Part shown: positions 32,268 through 40,582 of the stretch, piece by piece
Position numbering within the stretch: the stretch's first letter is position 1
Layout of the letters: each line of letters opens with the position of its first letter
Source of the DNA: Planctomycetota bacterium
GTDB lineage: Bacteria > Planctomycetota > UBA1135 > GCA-002686595
Reading direction: 5' to 3'
Assembly (NCBI GenBank): GCA_020847695.1
Contig: JADLBP010000211.1
Span: 62,001-126,000 of the forward strand
DNA length: 64,000 nt
The notes under the pieces: model-generated
What the model saw: the letters and a program-made list of their open reading frames with translations, nothing else
The model's database searches: none
Told to the model about the DNA's origin: nothing
Translations under genes and position numbers: made by a program

Positions 32268-32597
32268 ATGGACAACAACGCTTTGGGAATGGTCGAGACC
32301 AAGGGTCTCGTGGGCTCGATCGAGGCGGCGGACGCGATGGTCAAGGCGGCTCAGGTCCAGCTCTTCGGCAAGGAGAAGGTGACCGCCGGCCTGGTGACCA
32401 TGTTCGTCATCGGCGAGGTCGGCGCGGTCAAGGCCGCGACCGATGCCGGCGCCGCGGCCGCGCGCCGGGTCGGCGAGCTCGTCACCGTGCACGTCATCCC
32501 GCGCCCGCACGAGCAGCTGAAGCGCATCCTGCCGGCGATGGTTCCGATCCAGCCGCCGAAGGGCAAGGACGGCGGCAAGGACAAGAACCCCGATTGA
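32268..32597 (+). CDS. BMC-H hexameric shell protein 1
   Basis: This 109-residue protein consists of one PF00936 BMC domain plus a charged tail. Core motifs are '[20 protein letters not shown]' at the N-terminus and '[17 protein letters not shown]' (~50-66), and '[17 protein letters not shown]' closes the domain. Hexamers of this family tile the facets of microcompartment shells and let metabolites through the central pore. In the usual pore-loop position ('KVTAGLVTM') the sequence is T-A-G rather than G-S-G. The C-terminal 20 residues ('[14 protein letters not shown]') are an unusual Lys/Asp-rich extension. It is the first gene of the operon and lies 38 nt before the aldehyde dehydrogenase. 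Confidence 0.95.
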
Positions 32598-32635: not shown

Positions 32636-34489
32636 GTGTCGAATCTCGATCCGGACCTGCGCGCTCTCCAGGAAGTGCGCGACTACGTCGAACGCTCGAA
32701 GAAGGCGTGCGAGGCGGTCGCGCATTACTCGCAGAGCGAGATCGACAACGTCTGCCGCGCGATGGCGGAAGCCGGCGCGGCGGCCGCGTACGACCTCGGA
32801 CGCCTCGCGGTCGAGGAGACCGGCATCGGGCGCGTGCACTACAAGGTGCTGAAGAACCTGTTCGGCTCGCTCGGCATCTGGGAGTCGATCAAGAACGAGA
32901 AGTCGGTCGGCATCCTCTCGCGCGACGAGAAGACCGGCATCGTCGAGGTGGGGACGCCGAGCGGGATCATCGCCGGCATCATCCCGACGACCAATCCGAC
33001 GTCGACCGCGCTCGGCAAGGCGCTGATCTCCGTCAAGGGCCGCAATTCGATCGTCATCAGCCCGCACCCGCGCGCCAAGCGCTGCATCGGCGAGACGGTC
33101 GAGGTGATGCGCCGCGCGATCGAGCGCGTCGGCGCGCCGCCCGATCTCGTGCTGTCGCTCTCGAACCCGACGATCGAGTCGACCGGCGCGCTGATGAAGC
33201 ACAAGAAGGTCGCGATCATCCTCGCGACCGGCGGCTCGGGGCTGGTCGAGGCCGCGTACTCGTCGGGCAAGCCCGCGTACGGCGTCGGTCCGGGCAACGT
33301 GCCGTGCTTCGTCGATCGCTCCGCCGACGTCGCGCAGGCCGCGCGCTCGGTCGTCACCAGCCAGAGCTTCGACAACGGCACGCTGTGCTGCTCCGAGCAG
33401 GCGTTGGTGCTCGACAAGCCGATCGCCGAGCGCTTCCTCGCCGAGATGCAGAAGCGCGGCGCGTATCTCTGCAACGCGGAGGAGACCGACAAGCTCGCGA
33501 AGTACTGCAATCGCCGCGGACACATGAACGCCGACGTCGTCGGCCTCGATCCCTGGCGCATCGCCGAGAACGCCGGCTTCCGCGTGCCGCGCGAGACCAG
33601 CGTGCTGCTCGCGCACCAGGGCGGCGTCGGTCCCGACTGGCCGCTGTCGATCGAGATCCTCGCGCCGGTGCTCTCGGTGCACGTCGTCGACGACTGGAAG
33701 CACGGCTGCAAGGTCTCGATGGAGCTCCTGCAGTACGGCGGCCTCGGCCACACGTGCGCGGTGCACGCGAAGGACGAGCGCGTGCTCGACGCGTGGTTCC
33801 TCGAGAAGCCCGCGAGCCGCATCATCGTCAACGGACCGTCGTCGCAGGGCGCCGTCGGCTACTCGACGTGGCTGATGCCGTCGATGTCGCTCGGCTGCAG
33901 CCCGCTCGCCGGCAACATCACCAGCGACAACATCACCTTCAAGCACCTGCTGAACGTCAAGCGCGCCGCGTACCCGCGCAAGGACTGGGACGCGGTCGAG
34001 CGTCGCGACCACGAGCGCGTCGCCAAGTTCACGCGCGACCTCGCGCCGCGCGGCTCGGGGCTCGCGGGCGATCCCGCGATCTCCGGCGGCACGTTCTCGC
34101 CCGACGTGCGCAGCGCGCTGAAGAGCGAGCGCGTGCAGTCGAACTGGCAAGGCAATCCGGTGCCCGCGTCGTCGCCGAAGGCGGCCGCCGCGCCGAGCGC
34201 CACCGGCGTGCCGCGTTCGTTCACCGACACCGGCTCGAGCTCCGCGCGCGTGCACGCGGCGCCGAAGTCTCCCGCCGCCCCGGCGAGCTCGCCGATCTAC
34301 ACGACCTCGGTCTCGCCGATCGGGGGGGCCGCGGCGGCCGGCGGCGGAGCGAGCCAGGTGTACTCGGGCTCCGCGCTCTCGGTCCCCGAGATCCAATCGA
34401 TCATGTCGCACGCCGGCGCGGGTTGCCCGCTCGGTCCGTGCAAGGGCTGCGGCCACCAAGACGTCCAAACCGGCGCGTGCAAGGCGTGA
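32636..34489 (+). CDS. CoA-acylating aldehyde dehydrogenase (EutE/PduP type) with encapsulation-like, Cys-rich tail
   Basis: This 617-residue enzyme is expected to oxidise an aldehyde to its acyl-CoA with NAD+. GTG start. Residues ~1-475 form the ALDH core with 'IIPTTNPTSTALGKAL' (~115-130), 'ILATGGSGLVEAAYSSGKP' (~195-213), 'GVGPGNVPCF' and the nucleophile in 'FDNGTLCCSEQ' (Cys251). EutE/PduP proteins are ~460-500 residues. The extra ~140 are a Pro/Ala/Ser-rich linker (~500-578), a short amphipathic helix 'LSVPEIQSIMSHA' (581-593), which looks like an encapsulation peptide, and a tail with four cysteines (597, 602, 605, 615; 'CPLGPCKGCGHQD'). It lies between two shell genes, so lumen localisation is likely. 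Which aldehyde it uses is unknown. Confidence 0.92.
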   Translation: MSNLDPDLRALQEVRDYVERSKKACEAVAHYSQSEIDNVCRAMAEAGAAAAYDLGRLAVEETGIGRVHYKVLKNLFGSLGIWESIKNEKSVGILSRDEKTGIVEVGTPSGIIAGIIPTTNPTSTALGKALISVKGRNSIVISPHPRAKRCIGETVEVMRRAIERVGAPPDLVLSLSNPTIESTGALMKHKKVAIILATGGSGLVEAAYSSGKPAYGVGPGNVPCFVDRSADVAQAARSVVTSQSFDNGTLCCSEQALVLDKPIAERFLAEMQKRGAYLCNAEETDKLAKYCNRRGHMNADVVGLDPWRIAENAGFRVPRETSVLLAHQGGVGPDWPLSIEILAPVLSVHVVDDWKHGCKVSMELLQYGGLGHTCAVHAKDERVLDAWFLEKPASRIIVNGPSSQGAVGYSTWLMPSMSLGCSPLAGNITSDNITFKHLLNVKRAAYPRKDWDAVERRDHERVAKFTRDLAPRGSGLAGDPAISGGTFSPDVRSALKSERVQSNWQGNPVPASSPKAAAAPSATGVPRSFTDTGSSSARVHAAPKSPAAPASSPIYTTSVSPIGGAAAAGGGASQVYSGSALSVPEIQSIMSHAGAGCPLGPCKGCGHQDVQTGACKA

Positions 34490-34545: not shown

Positions 34546-34839
34546 ATGGAAACCATGATCGCTCTCGGTCTCATCGAGACCAAAGGGCTCGTCGGTGCGG
34601 TCGAAGCCGCCGACGCGATGTGCAAGGCCGCCAAGGTGACGTTGCTCGGCCGCGAGCAAGTCGGCGGCGGTCTCGTGACGGTGATGGTGCGCGGCGAGGT
34701 CGGCGCGGTGAAGGCCGCGGTCGAAGCCGGCGCCGCGGGCGCGAAGCGCGTCGGCGAGCTCGTCAGCGTCCACGTGATCCCGCGCCCGGCGGGCGATCTC
34801 GACAAGTACCTGCCGCCGCTGCCGACGGACGGCAAGTGA
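34546..34839 (+). CDS. BMC-H hexameric shell protein 2
   Basis: This is a 97-residue single-domain BMC-H shell protein. It opens '[20 protein letters not shown]' and continues '[18 protein letters not shown]', closely paralogous to the first hexamer gene of this operon. The pore-loop position reads G-G-G ('[10 protein letters not shown]') instead of T-A-G, so the two hexamers probably have different pores. It lacks the long charged tail of the first protein. It sits 56 nt after the aldehyde dehydrogenase and 51 nt before the tandem BMC-like gene. Confidence 0.95.
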
Positions 34840-34890: not shown

Positions 34891-35541
34891 ATGGCCACCC
34901 GCTCCTCGAGCCCGATCGACCTGCGCGGCGCGCTGGTGATCGACCACATGCAGCCCCAGTTCGCGGCGACGATCGCCGCGAACTCGGACGGCTACTTCCC
35001 CGTGGTCGGCGAGAGCGCGTTCTGGCTCGAGGTGCGCCCCGGCATCGTGATCAACCGGCTGATGGACGTCGCGCTCAAGCGCTGCCGCGTCACGCCGGGC
35101 GCGCTGGTGACCGAGCGCTCGTACGGCACGCTCGAGGTGCACGGCGACGACCAGGGGCAGGTGCGCGAGGCGGGCCGCTTGATCCTCGCGGCGGCGAACG
35201 TGACCGAAGCGGATCAACTGCGGCCGAACCTGATGACCAACGAGGTCATCCGTCAGGTCGACAGCCACCACGCGATGCTGATCAACCGCACGCGCAGCGG
35301 GATGCTGTTGCTCGCGAAGGACTCGCTCTACACGCTCGAGGTCAATCCGGCGATCTGGGTGCTGCTCGCCGCGAACGAAGCCGAGAAGGCCGCGCCGATC
35401 CGCATCGTCGGGCTCGGCAACAACGGCGCGGTCGGTCGCTTGCGACTCGCCGGCACCGACGCGGCGATCGACGCCGCGGTCGAAGCGGTGCAACGCGCGC
35501 TCGCCAACATCCAAGGCCGCAAGAACGAGGGCGTCGACTGA
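34891..35541 (+). CDS. Divergent tandem BMC-domain protein, EutL-like trimer candidate
   Basis: This 216-residue protein shows no single strong motif but clearly has two halves that repeat one another. 'LEVRPGIVINRLMDVALK' with the following 'GTLEVHGDDQGQVREAGRLIL' (~45-100) aligns with 'LEVNPAIWVLLAANEAEK' followed by 'GRLRLAGTDAAIDAAVEAV' (~150-205). Each half has the BMC-like order of a helix, strands, then 'G(T/R)LxLxGxxxxVxxA' and a final helix. Length and order are close to EutL (219 residues), a circularly permuted trimeric shell protein. The position between hexamer and pentamer genes supports a shell role. It overlaps the next gene by one base (TGATG). Alternative: a non-shell accessory protein. 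Confidence 0.6.
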   Translation: MATRSSSPIDLRGALVIDHMQPQFAATIAANSDGYFPVVGESAFWLEVRPGIVINRLMDVALKRCRVTPGALVTERSYGTLEVHGDDQGQVREAGRLILAAANVTEADQLRPNLMTNEVIRQVDSHHAMLINRTRSGMLLLAKDSLYTLEVNPAIWVLLAANEAEKAAPIRIVGLGNNGAVGRLRLAGTDAAIDAAVEAVQRALANIQGRKNEGVD

Positions 35542-35882
35542 TGTTCCTCGGACGCGTCGTCGGCGAAGTCTGGGTGACGAAGAAGGTCGCGGACCTGGCC
35601 GGCAAGCGCCTGCTCGTGATCGAAGCGCTCGACGAGCGCCGCGAGCCCGGCGCGCCCAAGGTGACGCCGGTGGTCGCGGCCGACCCGCTCGGCGCGGGCA
35701 TCGGCGAGCACGTCGTCGTCGCGTTCGGCAAGGCGGCGCGCGTCGCGTTCGGCGGCGACGGCGACTTCGCGTTCGAGGCCGCGGTCGTCGGCATCGTCGA
35801 CGATTTCGACGTGCCCGGCGCGCCGAAGTCGTGGCGCATGCGCGAATCACCCGGAGCGAAGACTTCGCGAGGAGGCGTCTGA
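35541..35882 (+). CDS. BMC-P (EutN/CcmL) pentameric vertex protein 1
   Basis: This 113-residue EutN/CcmL-family (PF03319) protein forms the pentamers that cap icosahedral vertices of the shell. Motifs are the N-terminal 'MFLGRVVGEVWVTKK' and the central 'ADPLGAGIGEHVVVAFGKAAR'. 'AAVVGIVDDFDVPG' marks the end of the domain. The last ~20 residues ('MRESPGAKTSRGGV') are a basic tail not normally part of the domain and partly encode the AGGAGG ribosome binding site of the next gene. Start and stop both overlap neighbours by one base (TGATG), so the trio is translationally coupled. Confidence 0.93.
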   Translation: MFLGRVVGEVWVTKKVADLAGKRLLVIEALDERREPGAPKVTPVVAADPLGAGIGEHVVVAFGKAARVAFGGDGDFAFEAAVVGIVDDFDVPGAPKSWRMRESPGAKTSRGGV

Positions 35883-36196
35883 TGCTCCTCGGAACCGTCG
35901 TCGGCAACGTGTGGGCGACCGTCAAGGATCCGACGTTGACCGGCTTGCGCTTGCTGGTGATCCAACCGTACACGCTCGACGGCAAACCGTCGGCGGAGAC
36001 GCTGATCGCGGTCGATCCGCTCGGCGCGGGGATCGGCGAGCGCGTGCTCGTCGTCTTCGGCCGCGCCGCGCGTCACGCGATCGGCCGCGGCCCCGACATA
36101 GGTTTCCAGACCGCGGTCGCGGGCATCATCGACCGCATGGAGCTCGGCGACGGCCGCACCGTCGGTCCGGTGAAGGCACAAGACACGGCGCCCTGA
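35882..36196 (+). CDS. BMC-P (EutN/CcmL) pentameric vertex protein 2
   Basis: This is a second EutN/CcmL-family protein, 104 residues. The start is the ATG at 35882 (TGATG overlap, AGGAGG eight nt upstream), not the longer track start. It opens 'MLLGTVVGNVWATVKDPTL' and carries 'AVDPLGAGIGERVLVVFGRAAR', then 'TAVAGIIDRMEL'. It is clearly paralogous to the first pentamer protein but lacks its basic tail. Known planctomycete compartments encode three pentamer paralogues; only two are seen here. It is followed 12 nt later by the trimer gene, with AAGGAG before that start. Confidence 0.94.
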   Translation: MLLGTVVGNVWATVKDPTLTGLRLLVIQPYTLDGKPSAETLIAVDPLGAGIGERVLVVFGRAARHAIGRGPDIGFQTAVAGIIDRMELGDGRTVGPVKAQDTAP

Positions 36197-36208: not shown

Positions 36209-36805
36209 ATGGAACGCAACGACTACAACCCGGAGATGCGCGCGGACGTCAAGCTCGCGCACTGCATCGGACTGCTCGAGCTGTGCTCGGTCGCGCGCGG
36301 CGTCGAAGTCGCCGATGCGGTGCTCTGGCAAGCGCGCATCGAGCTGCTCTTCTCGACGCCGGTCCACCCGGGCAAGTACGTGCTGCTGTTCACCGGCTCG
36401 GTCGACGACGTGCGCGCCGGCGTGCGCCGCGGCGCGGAGATCGCGGGCGCGGATCTCGTCGATCAGCTGATGATCCCGCAGATCCACGAGCAGGTGGTGC
36501 CGATCCTGAAGCGCAACGGCGGTCGCATCAAAGGCGAGCTCGATGCGATCGGCCTGATCGAGACCACGACGGTCGCATCCGCGATCGTCGCCGCCGACAT
36601 CGCGCTGAAGACCGCGACCGTCGACCTGATCGACCTGCGGATCGCGAACGGCCTCGGCGGCAAGAGCTTCCTGACGCTGACCGGCGAAGTGTCCGACGTG
36701 CGCTCGTCGGTCGCGGCGGGCGCGCGCTCGGCCCAGGAAAAAGGCCTGCTCGCGCGCGAAGTCGTGATCGCGCGTCCGCACCCCGACCTCGTCCACCACC
36801 TGTGA
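36209..36805 (+). CDS. BMC-T trimeric shell protein (two BMC domains, PduT-like order)
   Basis: This 198-residue protein has two fused BMC domains: 'AHCIGLLELCSVARGVEVAD' (~17-36) to ~100, and 'AIGLIETTTVASAIVAADIA' (~112-131) to the end. Such proteins make pseudohexameric trimers in the facet. The first-domain pore region reads 'STPVHPGKYVLL'. In PduT-type proteins the comparable CPGK-like loop carries an iron-sulfur ligand Cys, and here that position is His, so no cluster is predicted from this loop. The second domain pore region is 'GLGGKSFL'. AAGGAG precedes the ATG. It lies between the pentamer genes and the EutQ-like small gene. Confidence 0.92.
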   Translation: MERNDYNPEMRADVKLAHCIGLLELCSVARGVEVADAVLWQARIELLFSTPVHPGKYVLLFTGSVDDVRAGVRRGAEIAGADLVDQLMIPQIHEQVVPILKRNGGRIKGELDAIGLIETTTVASAIVAADIALKTATVDLIDLRIANGLGGKSFLTLTGEVSDVRSSVAAGARSAQEKGLLAREVVIARPHPDLVHHL

Positions 36806-36825: not shown

Positions 36826-37128
36826 GTGGCGCAGAAGCGTCTGATCGTCGAGTCCGAGGTGCACGCGCTCGCGCGCGGCTCCGAGCTCGTGATCTCGAAG
36901 GACGTGATCATCACGCCGGCGGCGCTCGACGCCGCGTTCGCGCGCCAGATCCGCGTCGTGCGCATCGACAAGAGCGCGGAGTCCGCACCGAGCGTCGTCG
37001 CCGCGCCGACGAACCTGTGGCAGCGCATGCACCAGGGCGAAGGCACGTACGTCGTGCAAGTGAAGAACGGCCGCGCGACCGTCTCGCGCCTGACCGACCA
37101 AGGGCCGATCCACTTCGGCTCCGAGTGA
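36826..37128 (+). CDS. Small BMC-associated protein with EutQ N-terminus-like motif
   Basis: This 100-residue protein starts at GTG. Residues 1-45 read 'KRLIVESEVHALARGSELVI' and then 'DVIITPAALDAAFA', a pattern I recognise from the N-terminal segment of EutQ (helix, then 'xxIITPxAxxxA'). The second half ('GEGTYVVQVKNGRATVSRL') is short, beta-rich and unassigned; there is no cupin domain as in full EutQ. The next gene begins with the same motif, so the pair probably share a binding partner, perhaps the shell or a cargo enzyme. It lies 20 nt after the trimer gene and 10 nt before the ACT-fusion gene. Function unknown. Confidence 0.65.
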   Translation: MAQKRLIVESEVHALARGSELVISKDVIITPAALDAAFARQIRVVRIDKSAESAPSVVAAPTNLWQRMHQGEGTYVVQVKNGRATVSRLTDQGPIHFGSE

Positions 37129-37138
37129 GGACCTCTCG

Positions 37139-37645
37139 ATGGCCCGCCGCTTCCTGACCGCCGACGACGTCCGCCGCGAGCATTCGGGCTCGATCGTCGT
37201 CGAAGCCGACACGATCGTGACGCCGCAAGCGCAGGAGACCGCGCGCGAGCTCGGCAAGGTGATCAGCACCACCAAGGGGCCGTACGTCCAACCGACGCCC
37301 GATCGCGGCCCGGACGCGGACAAGGCGCGCCGCTCGCTACCGAACCTGCCCGAGCCGCTCGAAAGCGACAGCCAAGCGACGTCGATGATCGTCACCGCGG
37401 TCGGCAAGAACCGACCGGGCGTGCTCGCGGAGTTGACCAGCGCGCTCGCCGAGTTCCACGCGAGCGTGCACGACATCAGCCAGCGCGTGGTCGACGGCTA
37501 CTTCCATTTGATCCTGGTGGTCGAGACGCCGCAGGGCGTCGGCTTCGGCACGTTGAAGCAACGGATGGAGTGCCTCGGCGGCGCCGACGACTACGCGGTG
37601 CGCGTGATGCACGAGCGCGTGTTCCGGTTCATGCACCGCGTCTGA
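37139..37645 (+). CDS. EutQ-N-like segment fused to an ACT (UPF0237-type) domain
   Basis: This is a 168-residue fusion. Residues 1-42 ('RRFLTADDVRREHSGSIVVE' then 'DTIVTPQAQETAREL') match the EutQ-like motif of the preceding gene. A linker (~43-78) leads to an ACT domain (~80-168), with 'VTAVGKNRPGVLAELTSAL', 'HDISQRVVDGYFHLILVVE' and the ending 'ERVFRFMHRV', the hallmark of the UPF0237 ACT family. Normal UPF0237 proteins are ~90 residues with only the ACT part and are encoded next to UPF0210. The UPF0210 gene here lies 1.6 kb downstream. ACT domains usually bind amino acids, so a regulatory or sensing role is plausible but unproven. It is the last gene of the BMC operon. Confidence 0.85.
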   Translation: MARRFLTADDVRREHSGSIVVEADTIVTPQAQETARELGKVISTTKGPYVQPTPDRGPDADKARRSLPNLPEPLESDSQATSMIVTAVGKNRPGVLAELTSALAEFHASVHDISQRVVDGYFHLILVVETPQGVGFGTLKQRMECLGGADDYAVRVMHERVFRFMHRV

Positions 37646-37967
37646 GCGCGGGCGCGGCGCCTTCCAGCGCTCCCGTCCTTGCCCGCTCGTGTTGTTCGGG
37701 TGCGACGGAAACTCGGATACCGTCCGCCCGATTGCTGGTCTCGTCTGCGACGGGCCAGCGTGCTCACCGTGGAGGTCGGTGGGGAACCGGTGCGCACGCG
37801 CTTGCCGTCGCAGCGCACTGCGCTCACGCGGGAGCTCCACGCGTGTGGCCGGTTCGCGCGGCGGTCGTCGCCCAAGGGCGTCCTGCCCGACATTGGACGC
37901 CGTTGGACGTTCGCTCGATTGCCGGAAACCAACGGGCGGCTTGTCGGTCTTTCCACCGGAGGAAACA
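37646..37967 (+). other. Intergenic region before the toxin-antitoxin remnant
   Basis: These 322 bases hold no credible gene. A weak promoter-like pair (TTGTTC at 37692-37697 and GATACC at 37716-37721, 18-bp spacer) is visible. A strong GGAGGAAA ribosome binding site sits just before the ATG at 37968, stronger than most in this window. Codon use in the following remnant is less GC-rich than its neighbours. Confidence 0.35.
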
Positions 37968-38194
37968 ATGATCGGCATGGCGTACACGTGGGAGGACCTG
38001 AAGAAGCTCTCTGTCGCGGAACGCTTGAGACTGCTCGAGACGATCTGGGAGAGCCTCGAGGACGATACGGCGTCGCCGAGATCTCCGACGAGCTCAAGCA
38101 TGAGCTGGAAGCACGCTGGGCAGAGCACCTGAGAGATCCCTCGTCCACGATTCCCTGGGACGAGTTTCGTAAGCGGTACGGGCTCGCGCAGTGA
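37968..38194 (+). pseudogene. Frameshifted addiction-module antitoxin (TIGR02574-like)
   Basis: The frame from the ATG at 37968 reads 'TWEDLKKLSVAERLRLLETI' and 'WESLEDD', the usual start of the short RelE-partner antitoxin family. It then runs out of homology and stops at 38132. The expected second half, 'ISDELKHELEARWAEHLRDP' followed by 'STIPWDEFRKRYG', is present in another frame and ends at 38194. A single-base deletion (or two-base insertion) near 38070 explains the switch. The intact protein would be about 75 residues. The stop overlaps a GTG that would begin the toxin gene. A sequencing error is the alternative explanation. Confidence 0.7.
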
Positions 38195-38318: not shown

Positions 38319-39062
38319 TCAGCGCGAGCAGCGGAACGAATCCCGGACCGCGGCGAGTTGCGTCCACACGGCGTCGTCCGACGGGCGAGGCGACACGCGG
38401 AACAGCGCGACCGTGCGGTCTTGCACCTCGCAGCGGAAGGACTCGACTTCGAGTTGGAGCTCGATGCGCGCGTGCGTCGCGAACGGGTCGTACGACGAAA
38501 CCGTGCCGCGCCAGTGCGTGCGCGTCGAATCGTCGGAAGGCGCGGCCACCAGGCGACTGACGACCTTCGCGCGCTCCGCGTCGAAGTCGGAGCCCTCGAC
38601 GGCCGCGGACAGCCCCTCGAAGTAGGCCGCGAGCTCCTCGTTCAGCCGGTTCGCGTCCAACTCGACCTCGCCTTCGAGCCACCACACGAACGCGTACGTC
38701 CAGAACTGCTCGCTCGCCGCGTCGAACATCCCCGGCGCGAAGCGCAGCTCCTCGAGGCCGCGGTAGGGGAGGCTCGGCGCGAAGCCGAGCGGGAACGGGA
38801 TCGTCTCGGAGCGCCAACCGGGCGGCAGCGGCCAGGCGAACGGCAGCGGCTCGCGCGGCGCCGGCTCGTCCGCCGGTCGCGCCGGCTGCGCGCCAACCGG
38901 CTCGCTCGCCGGCGCTGCGATGACCTCGACGCGCGTCGCCGCGCGCTCGCCGGCCCGCACGTCGGTGCACGCCGACGATGCCGCGAGCCCCAGCACCGCC
39001 GACAGCGCCCCGAGCGCGCTCGCGCGTCGCATCCGTCCGTAGTCGAGCGCTCTCCCGTGCAT
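38319..39062 (-). CDS. Exported protein of unknown function, possible lipoprotein
   Basis: This is a 247-residue protein. The start is the ATG at 39062 because GGAGGA lies 4 nt upstream; an internal ATG ten codons later is possible. A signal sequence ('ALGALSAVLGLAASSAC') ends at a Cys, but the residues before it are not an ideal lipobox. A Pro/Ala-rich linker (~35-70) is followed by a conserved-looking globular region with 'FPLGFAPSLPYRGLEELRF' and an aromatic cluster 'EQFWTYAFVWWLEG'. I do not recognise the family. The gene lies on the opposite strand between the ACT-fusion gene and the UPF0210 gene, together with the toxin-antitoxin remnant, and looks like part of an insertion that split that pair. 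Confidence 0.7.
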   Translation of the reverse strand: MHGRALDYGRMRRASALGALSAVLGLAASSACTDVRAGERAATRVEVIAAPASEPVGAQPARPADEPAPREPLPFAWPLPPGWRSETIPFPLGFAPSLPYRGLEELRFAPGMFDAASEQFWTYAFVWWLEGEVELDANRLNEELAAYFEGLSAAVEGSDFDAERAKVVSRLVAAPSDDSTRTHWRGTVSSYDPFATHARIELQLEVESFRCEVQDRTVALFRVSPRPSDDAVWTQLAAVRDSFRCSR

Positions 39063-39079
39063 CGCGTCCTCCGGCGGGC

Positions 39080-39085
39080 AGCGTA
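39080..39085 (-). promoter_or_regulatory. -10-like TACGCT upstream of the exported protein
   Basis: TACGCT on the minus strand lies 17 nt before the ATG at 39062, with the GGAGGA site between. A plus-strand TAAGCT at 39185-39190 could serve the divergent UPF0210 gene with a short ~20 nt leader; neither has a clear -35 box. Confidence 0.4.
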
Positions 39086-39217
39086 CCCGGCCCGCTCGGC
39101 GCACTCCACGAACTCCGCGGCGACCGCGCCGCGGCCCGAGCGCTCACCTCGCGGGATCCGGCGTCGATCGCCGCCCTCGGACGCTAAGCTCTCGCGCCCG
39201 AGCGGAGCCCCGAACCC

Positions 39218-40582
39218 GTGTCCTTCACCGAACAAGAGATCCTCGAAACCGTCCGGATGTTCGAGCTCGAGACGCTCGACATCCGCACGACCACGCTCGG
39301 CATCAACCTGCTCGACTGCGCCGACCCGGACATCGAGTCGGCCTGCGAGAAGGTCTACGCCAAGATCGTCCACCAAGCACGCGACCTGGTGAAGGTCGGC
39401 CAGTCGATCACCGCCGACTACGGCATCCCGATCGTCAACAAGCGCATCGCGGTCACGCCGATCTCGCTGGTCGCCGCCGCGTGCGGGAGCGACGACCTCG
39501 TGCCGTTCGCGCGCGCGATGGACGCCGCTGCGAAAGCGGTCGGCGTCGACTTCATCGGCGGCTTCACCGCCTACGTCCACAAGGGCTACACCAACGCCGA
39601 CCGCGCGCTGATCGAGTCGATCCCGCGCGCGCTCGCCGAGACCGACCACGTCTGCTCCTCGATCTCGCTCGCTTCGACGCGCGCCGGGATCAACATGGAT
39701 GCGGTCGGCCACTTCAGTCGCATCGTGCTCGCGACCGCGAAGCTGACGGCGGATCGCGGCGGGCTCGGTTGCGCGAAGCTCGTGTGCTTCTGCAACACCG
39801 TCGAGGACAACCCGTTCGTGGCGGGCGCTCACATCGGGATCGGCGAGGGCGAGACCGTGCTCAACGTCGGCGTCTCCGGCCCCGGCGTGGTGCGTTCCGC
39901 GCTCGCCCGGCTCGGGCCCGACGCCGATCTGCTCGCGGTCGCCGAGACGATCAAGCGCACCGCGTTCAAGATCACGCGCATGGGCGAGCTCGTCGGCCGC
40001 GAAGCCGCGCGCCGACTCGGCACGACGTTCGGCATCGTCGACGTATCGCTCGCGCCGACGCCTGCGATCGGCGACTCGGTCTCCGACATCCTCGAGCTGA
40101 TCGGCGCCGAACGCACCGGCGCGCCCGGCACGACCGCGGCGCTCGCGCTCTTGACCGACGCGGTCAAGAAGGGCGGCGCGATGGCGAGCTCGTCGGTCGG
40201 CGGCCTCTCCGGCGCGTTCATCCCGGTCAGCGAGGACGCCGGCATGATCGCGGCGGTGCGCGACGACGCGCTCAGCCTCGCCAAGCTCGAAGCGATGACC
40301 GCGGTGTGCTCGGTCGGCCTCGACATGGTCGCGGTACCCGGCGACACGCCGCCCGCGACGATCGCGGGCATCATCGCGGACGAGATGGCGATCGGCATGA
40401 TCAACAACAAGACGACCGCGGTCCGGATCATCCCCGTCCCGGGCAAGGGGCCGGGCGAGACCGTCGAGTGGGGCGGCCTGCTCGGCACCGCGATCGTCCA
40501 AGACCCCGGCAAGTACTCCTGCGAGCGCTTCTACCTGCGCGGCGGCCGCATCCCGGCACCCTTGCAGGGTTACAAGAACTGA
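39218..40582 (+). CDS. UPF0210 (DUF711, PFL-like fold) family protein
   Basis: This 454-residue protein has the full length of the family and starts at GTG. Strong family blocks are '[20 protein letters not shown]' (~19-38), '[16 protein letters not shown]' (~69-84), '[20 protein letters not shown]' (~109-128), '[20 protein letters not shown]' (~153-172), '[20 protein letters not shown]', and '[14 protein letters not shown]' (~219-232). Structures of homologues show a pyruvate-formate-lyase-like barrel, but no glycyl-radical motif is present here and the catalytic role of the family is unknown. The usual partner is an adjacent ACT protein (UPF0237). Here that partner is the EutQ-N/ACT fusion at the end of the shell operon, 1.6 kb upstream. 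The gene likely has its own promoter. Confidence 0.93.

Follow-up and report, generated by a model that had tools for sequence, protein, structure and literature searches.

In the window analysed here, a 64,000-nucleotide stretch of Planctomycetota DNA, the two proteins encoded at the end of a microcompartment (BMC) operon are confirmed by profile comparison to open with one and the same domain, statistically related to parts of EutQ, EutT, and PduM. This ~45-residue N-terminal domain is named QN here, and the two proteins are designated QN-small and QN-ACT. The best explanation, to which a rough probability of 0.62 is assigned, is that QN acts as a docking module through which QN-ACT tethers a complex of the UPF0210/DUF711 protein to the shell of a compartment that is probably of the sugar-phosphate type. 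In this scheme, QN would fold as a β-α-β-β-α-β unit and bind shell facet proteins, so that its fusion partners would be held at the luminal side of the shell, while the UPF0237-type ACT domain of QN-ACT would dimerise and bind the PFL-fold UPF0210/DUF711 protein. Since DUF711 itself lacks a targeting extension, QN-ACT would serve as the adaptor, possibly also as a regulator, that brings it into the compartment; QN-small would be a stand-alone docking or assembly factor with a role comparable to that of EutQ or PduM.

Organization of the Locus

QN-small (100 aa, GTG start) and QN-ACT (168 aa) are separated by 10 bp and form the final two genes of a compact plus-strand BMC operon that begins with BMC-H1 and follows the order given in Table 1; the preliminary description had placed these consecutive genes and their reading frames correctly. 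All 35 named loci show the same shell-gene order, as do the loci inspected in genomes, with QN-small missing from some of them. Of 48 genomes sampled from the window's GTDB family, 44 encode QN-ACT; the closest named relative (JACRIN010000006.1) carries a 96% identical copy, and a search across the order found none of comparable similarity in its other families.

Table 1. Coordinates of the BMC operon and the DUF711 gene in the window.
Feature	Position	Strand	Remarks
BMC-H1 shell hexamer protein	32268..32597	+	
Aldehyde dehydrogenase, TIGR02518-like	32636..34489	+	C-terminal helix and four-Cys tail
BMC-H2 shell hexamer protein	34546..34839	+	
CcmP-like BMC-T (Tdp) shell protein	34891..35541	+	
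BMC-P1 (EutN/CcmL)	35541..35882	+	
BMC-P2 (EutN/CcmL)	35882..36196	+	
PduT-like BMC-T (Ts) shell protein	36209..36805	+	
QN-small	36826..37128	+	QN at aa ~5–46, variable linker, three-strand C-terminal tail
QN-ACT	37139..37645	+	QN at aa ~4–44, conserved linker, UPF0237-type ACT at aa ~82–168
UPF0210/DUF711 (PFL-fold) protein	39218..40582	+	No terminal extension

The DUF711 gene of the window starts 1,572 bp past QN-ACT, beyond an insertion of ~1.6 kb. Between the two genes lie an addiction-module-like sequence apparently split across two frames (37689–38194) and, on the minus strand, a lipoprotein-like open reading frame that is conserved in the genus and has no Pfam match (38319–39104). Over its last ~40 residues, the aldehyde dehydrogenase has a helix predicted to act in targeting and, after it, a four-cysteine tail (CP.GPC.GC.H......G.C.A), which is retained in all 25 full-length homologues compared and looks like a metal-binding tail. 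Outside the window, on the same contig (C212), a satellite cluster of three BMC-P genes is located at ~22.4–23.3 kb (L168:8446-9335), ~75 kb upstream of the main locus, and relatives have similar satellites.

A Shared N-Terminal Domain

When scanned as single sequences, QN-small gives weak matches to TIGR02536 (C-terminal), PduM (C-terminal), EutT (N-terminal), and EutQ (N-terminal), and QN-ACT gives matches to PduM and EutQ, all with E-values between 1e-3 and 5e-2. The preliminary description had proposed that both proteins share an N-terminal pattern of ~40 residues resembling the start of EutQ, and profile searches bear this out: a profile built from 64 QN-ACT N-termini detects the QN-small of the window (E = 4e-4) and residues 2–46 of E. 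coli EutQ (E = 2e-4; both at Z = 10,000), and reciprocally, a profile of QN-small N-termini detects QN-ACT (E = 6e-3) and residues 2–46 of EutT (E = 1.2e-2). A broader profile was constructed from 80 Planctomycetota QN domains, devoid of any enterobacterial sequence, and was searched against 467 E. coli ORFs with E-values scaled to a whole proteome (Z = 4300); it retrieves the N-terminus of EutT (4.6e-7), the N-terminus of EutQ (2.9e-5), and the C-terminus of PduM (5.8e-5), the next-best E. coli match lying at only 9.6. A lack of statistical similarity to EutQ N-termini would have spoken against the proposed kinship; instead, the profiles detected homology to all three of EutQ, EutT, and PduM.

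The invariant core of QN across 38 sequences is T-P-x-A...A. The segment had earlier been depicted as a helix followed by a motif; it comprises more than these, being predicted as β-α-β-β-α-β. AlphaFold (AF2) models both proteins with this unit, at pLDDT values of mostly 80–95. The "beta-rich tail" attributed to the small protein likewise corresponds to three strands predicted at residues 74–99 (pLDDT ~90), and a fold search of QN-small against the PDB gave no match at E < 0.001. In the linker of QN-small, at least four cysteines, often as CxCGG, occur in 16 of 38 proteins, and the window copy lacks them; the linker of QN-ACT is conserved (PDRGPDA...PEP).

Neither protein of the window is EutQ itself, because no match to the PF06249 cupin was found in QN-small or QN-ACT by a Pfam scan; in their own genome, only a sub-threshold fragment of a EutQ cupin was detected. 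PF06249 had been suggested as the search target for the N-terminal likeness; it covers the cupin half of EutQ, and that search is therefore unable to reveal the relationship. The PduM match is confined to the last ~40 positions of the model (the end of PF15953), and the full-length PduM model is not matched. In E. coli E24377A, the QN domain stands at the C-terminus of PduM (L242:9625-10116). An earlier account restricts the homologues of PduM to Pdu systems (PMC12108088), and the QN domain recognised by profile at the PduM C-terminus runs contrary to that account.

No internal duplication of the QN halves was found by hhalign. The possibility that QN is a circularly permuted E3-binding (PSBD) domain was considered and rejected, AF2 predicting a strand-containing domain. 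The best PDB sequence matches of the QN profile are E2 PSBDs (E = 0.05–0.46), and the PF02817 cut-off was attained by 2 of 10 QN sequences when these were doubled, through the first helix only and with a score that is doubled by construction.

Distribution of QN

A survey of 294 Planctomycetota genomes, with a QN match threshold of E ≤ 1e-3 and the BMC pentamer (BMC-P) as the compartment marker, found QN in 67 genomes, 65 of which also encode BMC-P; the 65 span 25 GTDB families, and the exceptions belong to two families. Among the 227 genomes without QN, 29 encode BMC-P and the other 198 do not (Fisher p ~1.6e-39 for co-occurrence, with genomes counted as independent and relatedness uncorrected). 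The motif might have been common outside BMC loci, as the preliminary description had allowed; QN proves to occur almost solely where the genome encodes BMC shells. It is highly improbable that the similarity is convergent, or driven by the composition of GC-rich genomes, and that QN is not one domain at all: the domain is short and its single-sequence matches are weak, yet profiles from GC-rich Planctomycetota single out three BMC proteins among the E. coli ORFs with nothing else close, and QN co-occurs strongly with BMC shells.

Fusion partners were read from 40 match regions, where most QN genes adjoin shell genes. QN takes an N-terminal or nearly N-terminal position in RpiB (PF02502), in triosephosphate-isomerase-like proteins (PF00121), in UPF0237-type ACT proteins, in small proteins with a strand-rich tail, and in ~180-aa proteins whose loci carry shell and AldDh genes divergent from those of the window. 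In most genomes of the window's family (L169, L170, L098-L102, L138-L167), a satellite QN-RpiB is encoded at a distance from the shell genes, adjoining an N-terminally extended DeoC aldolase.

Probable Docking at the Shell

In Salmonella EutQ, residues 9–41 contact the shell and residues 62–99 hold the targeting peptides of cargo, and residues 1–99 by themselves send GFP to the compartment (PMC12487888); the pull-down of EutM requires EutQ 1–100 (PMC4827028). Since QN is homologous to residues 2–46, the shell-binding part of EutQ (PMC12487888), shell docking would be its most likely function, and we infer by homology that QN-small and QN-ACT of the window bind the shell. Reading the shared segment as a docking module, as had been proposed at the outset, thus appears well supported by the homology to EutQ, EutT, and PduM, by the recurrence of the domain on unrelated BMC proteins, and by its near-confinement to BMC genomes. 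Several microcompartment proteins that are otherwise unrelated share the domain, which suggests a general tag for anchoring proteins to the organelle, and such a tag would explain how QN-RpiB can be encoded far from the shell genes. More broadly, QN may be a general folded shell-docking domain common to EutQ, EutT, PduM, TIGR02536, RpiB, TIM-like, and ACT proteins, hitherto regarded as unrelated, and a second route of targeting alongside encapsulation peptides, with the ACT partner bringing DUF711 into the microcompartment; this wider claim is tentative and falls somewhat short of even odds. Encapsulation peptides are likewise add-ons that direct unrelated enzymes to BMCs, but they are amphipathic helices of 15–20 residues, whereas QN is a predicted folded β-α-β-β-α-β domain of ~45 residues. 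No description of a domain common to EutQ, EutT, PduM, and RpiB was found in open-licence PMC papers, although an earlier notice elsewhere is possible.

Alternatively, QN could bind cargo or other QN domains within the core rather than the shell, as might be surmised from PduM, which remains with the cargo when PduB1-37 is missing (PMC9132943). This is quite unlikely, given that the QN-aligned residues 9–41 of EutQ bind the shell and undergo no chemical shift change with a cargo peptide (PMC12487888). The shell proteins themselves are neutral on QN docking: residues K53 and D57 of EutM, which are needed for EutQ binding, correspond to K and D in BMC-H1 and to K and E in BMC-H2, but both are also retained in PduA and PduJ, and Q64 is not retained.

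The QN proteins might also be shell–cargo assembly factors in the manner of EutQ and PduM, with QN on the shell, the remainder on cargo targeting peptides, and no specific role for DUF711. The QN-bearing PduM and EutQ both connect shell and core (PMC9132943, PMC12487888), and in L129/L130 the two domains of QN-ACT are separated by a helix resembling a targeting peptide. However, EutQ continues with the cargo-binding helices H3/H4 and the PF06249 cupin, and the window proteins have neither; the AF2 model of the family's QN-ACT holds only a short, low-confidence helix at residues 60–66. This reading, which also gives no account of the DUF711 linkage, is considered improbable. The other carriers differ as well: EutT shares the QN domain at its N-terminus but is a cobalamin adenosyltransferase, and in PduM the QN domain is C-terminal, with a targeting helix at the N-terminal end.

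UPF0237-Type ACT and the DUF711 Gene

Pfam recovers the ACT domain that had been assigned to the second protein (ACT_6, 7.5e-13) in its C-terminal part, and the assignment is confirmed by similarity to 1zpv in both sequence (3e-10) and fold (TM 0.86 on the target). QN-ACT also matches NF001220 at E = 8e-20 with 70.9 bits, slightly below the cut-off of 74 bits, and ends in MHRV, in accordance with the C-terminal MHR[VI] of UPF0237. The single-domain UPF0237 form measures ~90 aa, and QN and the linker add ~80 residues to it; hence, QN-ACT is a fusion variant of the UPF0237 ACT proteins. The resemblance to the UPF0237 ACT and UPF0210/DUF711 pair (1zpv, 2ha9) extends from ACT sequence and fold to the terminal MHRV/MHKL and the gene order ACT-DUF711, but the plain pair has neither QN nor linkage to BMC genes. 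Structures exist for this pair, and to our knowledge no activity has been established.

In 26 of 35 family loci, DUF711 starts at most 50 bp downstream of QN-ACT; it lies elsewhere in a few relatives, and two sampled family members (G021, G037) lack it. Other Planctomycetota families likewise have QN-ACT followed by DUF711 next to shell genes. ACT proteins near shell genes carry QN (L109, L112, L115, L118, L119, L215, L216, L217, and the family loci), whereas those in DUF711 pairs outside BMC loci do not: in Listeria and Enterococcus, a plain ACT gene of 88–89 aa directly precedes a PFL-family/UPF0210 gene; a Planctomycetota genome without a BMC-P match (G241) has a plain ACT-DUF711 pair; and in three loci with no shell genes nearby (L209, L219, L220), the adjoining protein has a double ACT and no QN. 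The DUF711 protein of the window is 63% identical to the Listeria protein. DUF711 belongs to a ten-stranded barrel superfamily together with ribonucleotide reductase and PFL (PMC4390871).

A further reading, which takes up the ligand-sensing ACT of the preliminary description, holds that QN docks QN-ACT at the shell and that ACT is a ligand sensor for lumen metabolites or a regulator of an encapsulated enzyme, DUF711 being a mere neighbour. ACT domains are frequent amino acid binders and enzyme regulators, and several loci carry QN-ACT without an adjoining DUF711; even so, this reading is unlikely, the closest ACT relatives directly preceding DUF711 in Firmicutes and in BMC-free Planctomycetota and the QN-ACT/DUF711 adjacency being retained in most family loci. 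Because these closest relatives are UPF0237 proteins encoded beside UPF0210/DUF711, a role of ACT as a subunit or adaptor towards DUF711 would be at least as likely as one as a ligand sensor.

Compartment Type

Under the preferred tethering of DUF711 by QN-ACT, we infer the ACT–DUF711 contact, the encapsulation of DUF711, and the metabolic pathway. The compartment of the window's family probably handles sugar phosphates, because the satellite operons encode QN-RpiB beside the extended DeoC aldolase; DeoC would produce acetaldehyde for the aldehyde dehydrogenase of the shell operon. Several observations count against the preferred explanation: QN-RpiB and the extended DeoC are absent from the window's own MAG (89.9% complete), a search of 26 family genomes gave no PduL-type phosphotransacylase, DUF711 is displaced from QN-ACT in the window and in a few relatives, and two sampled family members lack DUF711. 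With the satellite enzymes lacking from that MAG and PduL from the family genomes searched, the pathway is incomplete. The SPU and MIC types of BMC loci (PMC8217296, PMC4207490) resemble the window's family in a CcmP-like BMC-T, in a main locus that has AldDh but no enzyme to make the aldehyde, and in DeoC and RpiB, which most family genomes carry as satellites (QN-RpiB and extended DeoC) that the window's own MAG lacks; they differ in that PduL is absent from the window's family, and the main text of neither survey mentions DUF711 or QN-ACT.

Significance

For the question of how shell and cargo are connected in microcompartments, a QN domain common to EutQ, EutT, PduM, and many Planctomycetota enzymes points to a shared mechanism that can be tested. 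QN may serve as a marker for new BMC cargo whose genes lie at a distance from those of the shell, and possibly as an engineering tag. Moreover, the linkage of QN-ACT with DUF711 supplies a functional context for the UPF0237/UPF0210 pair.
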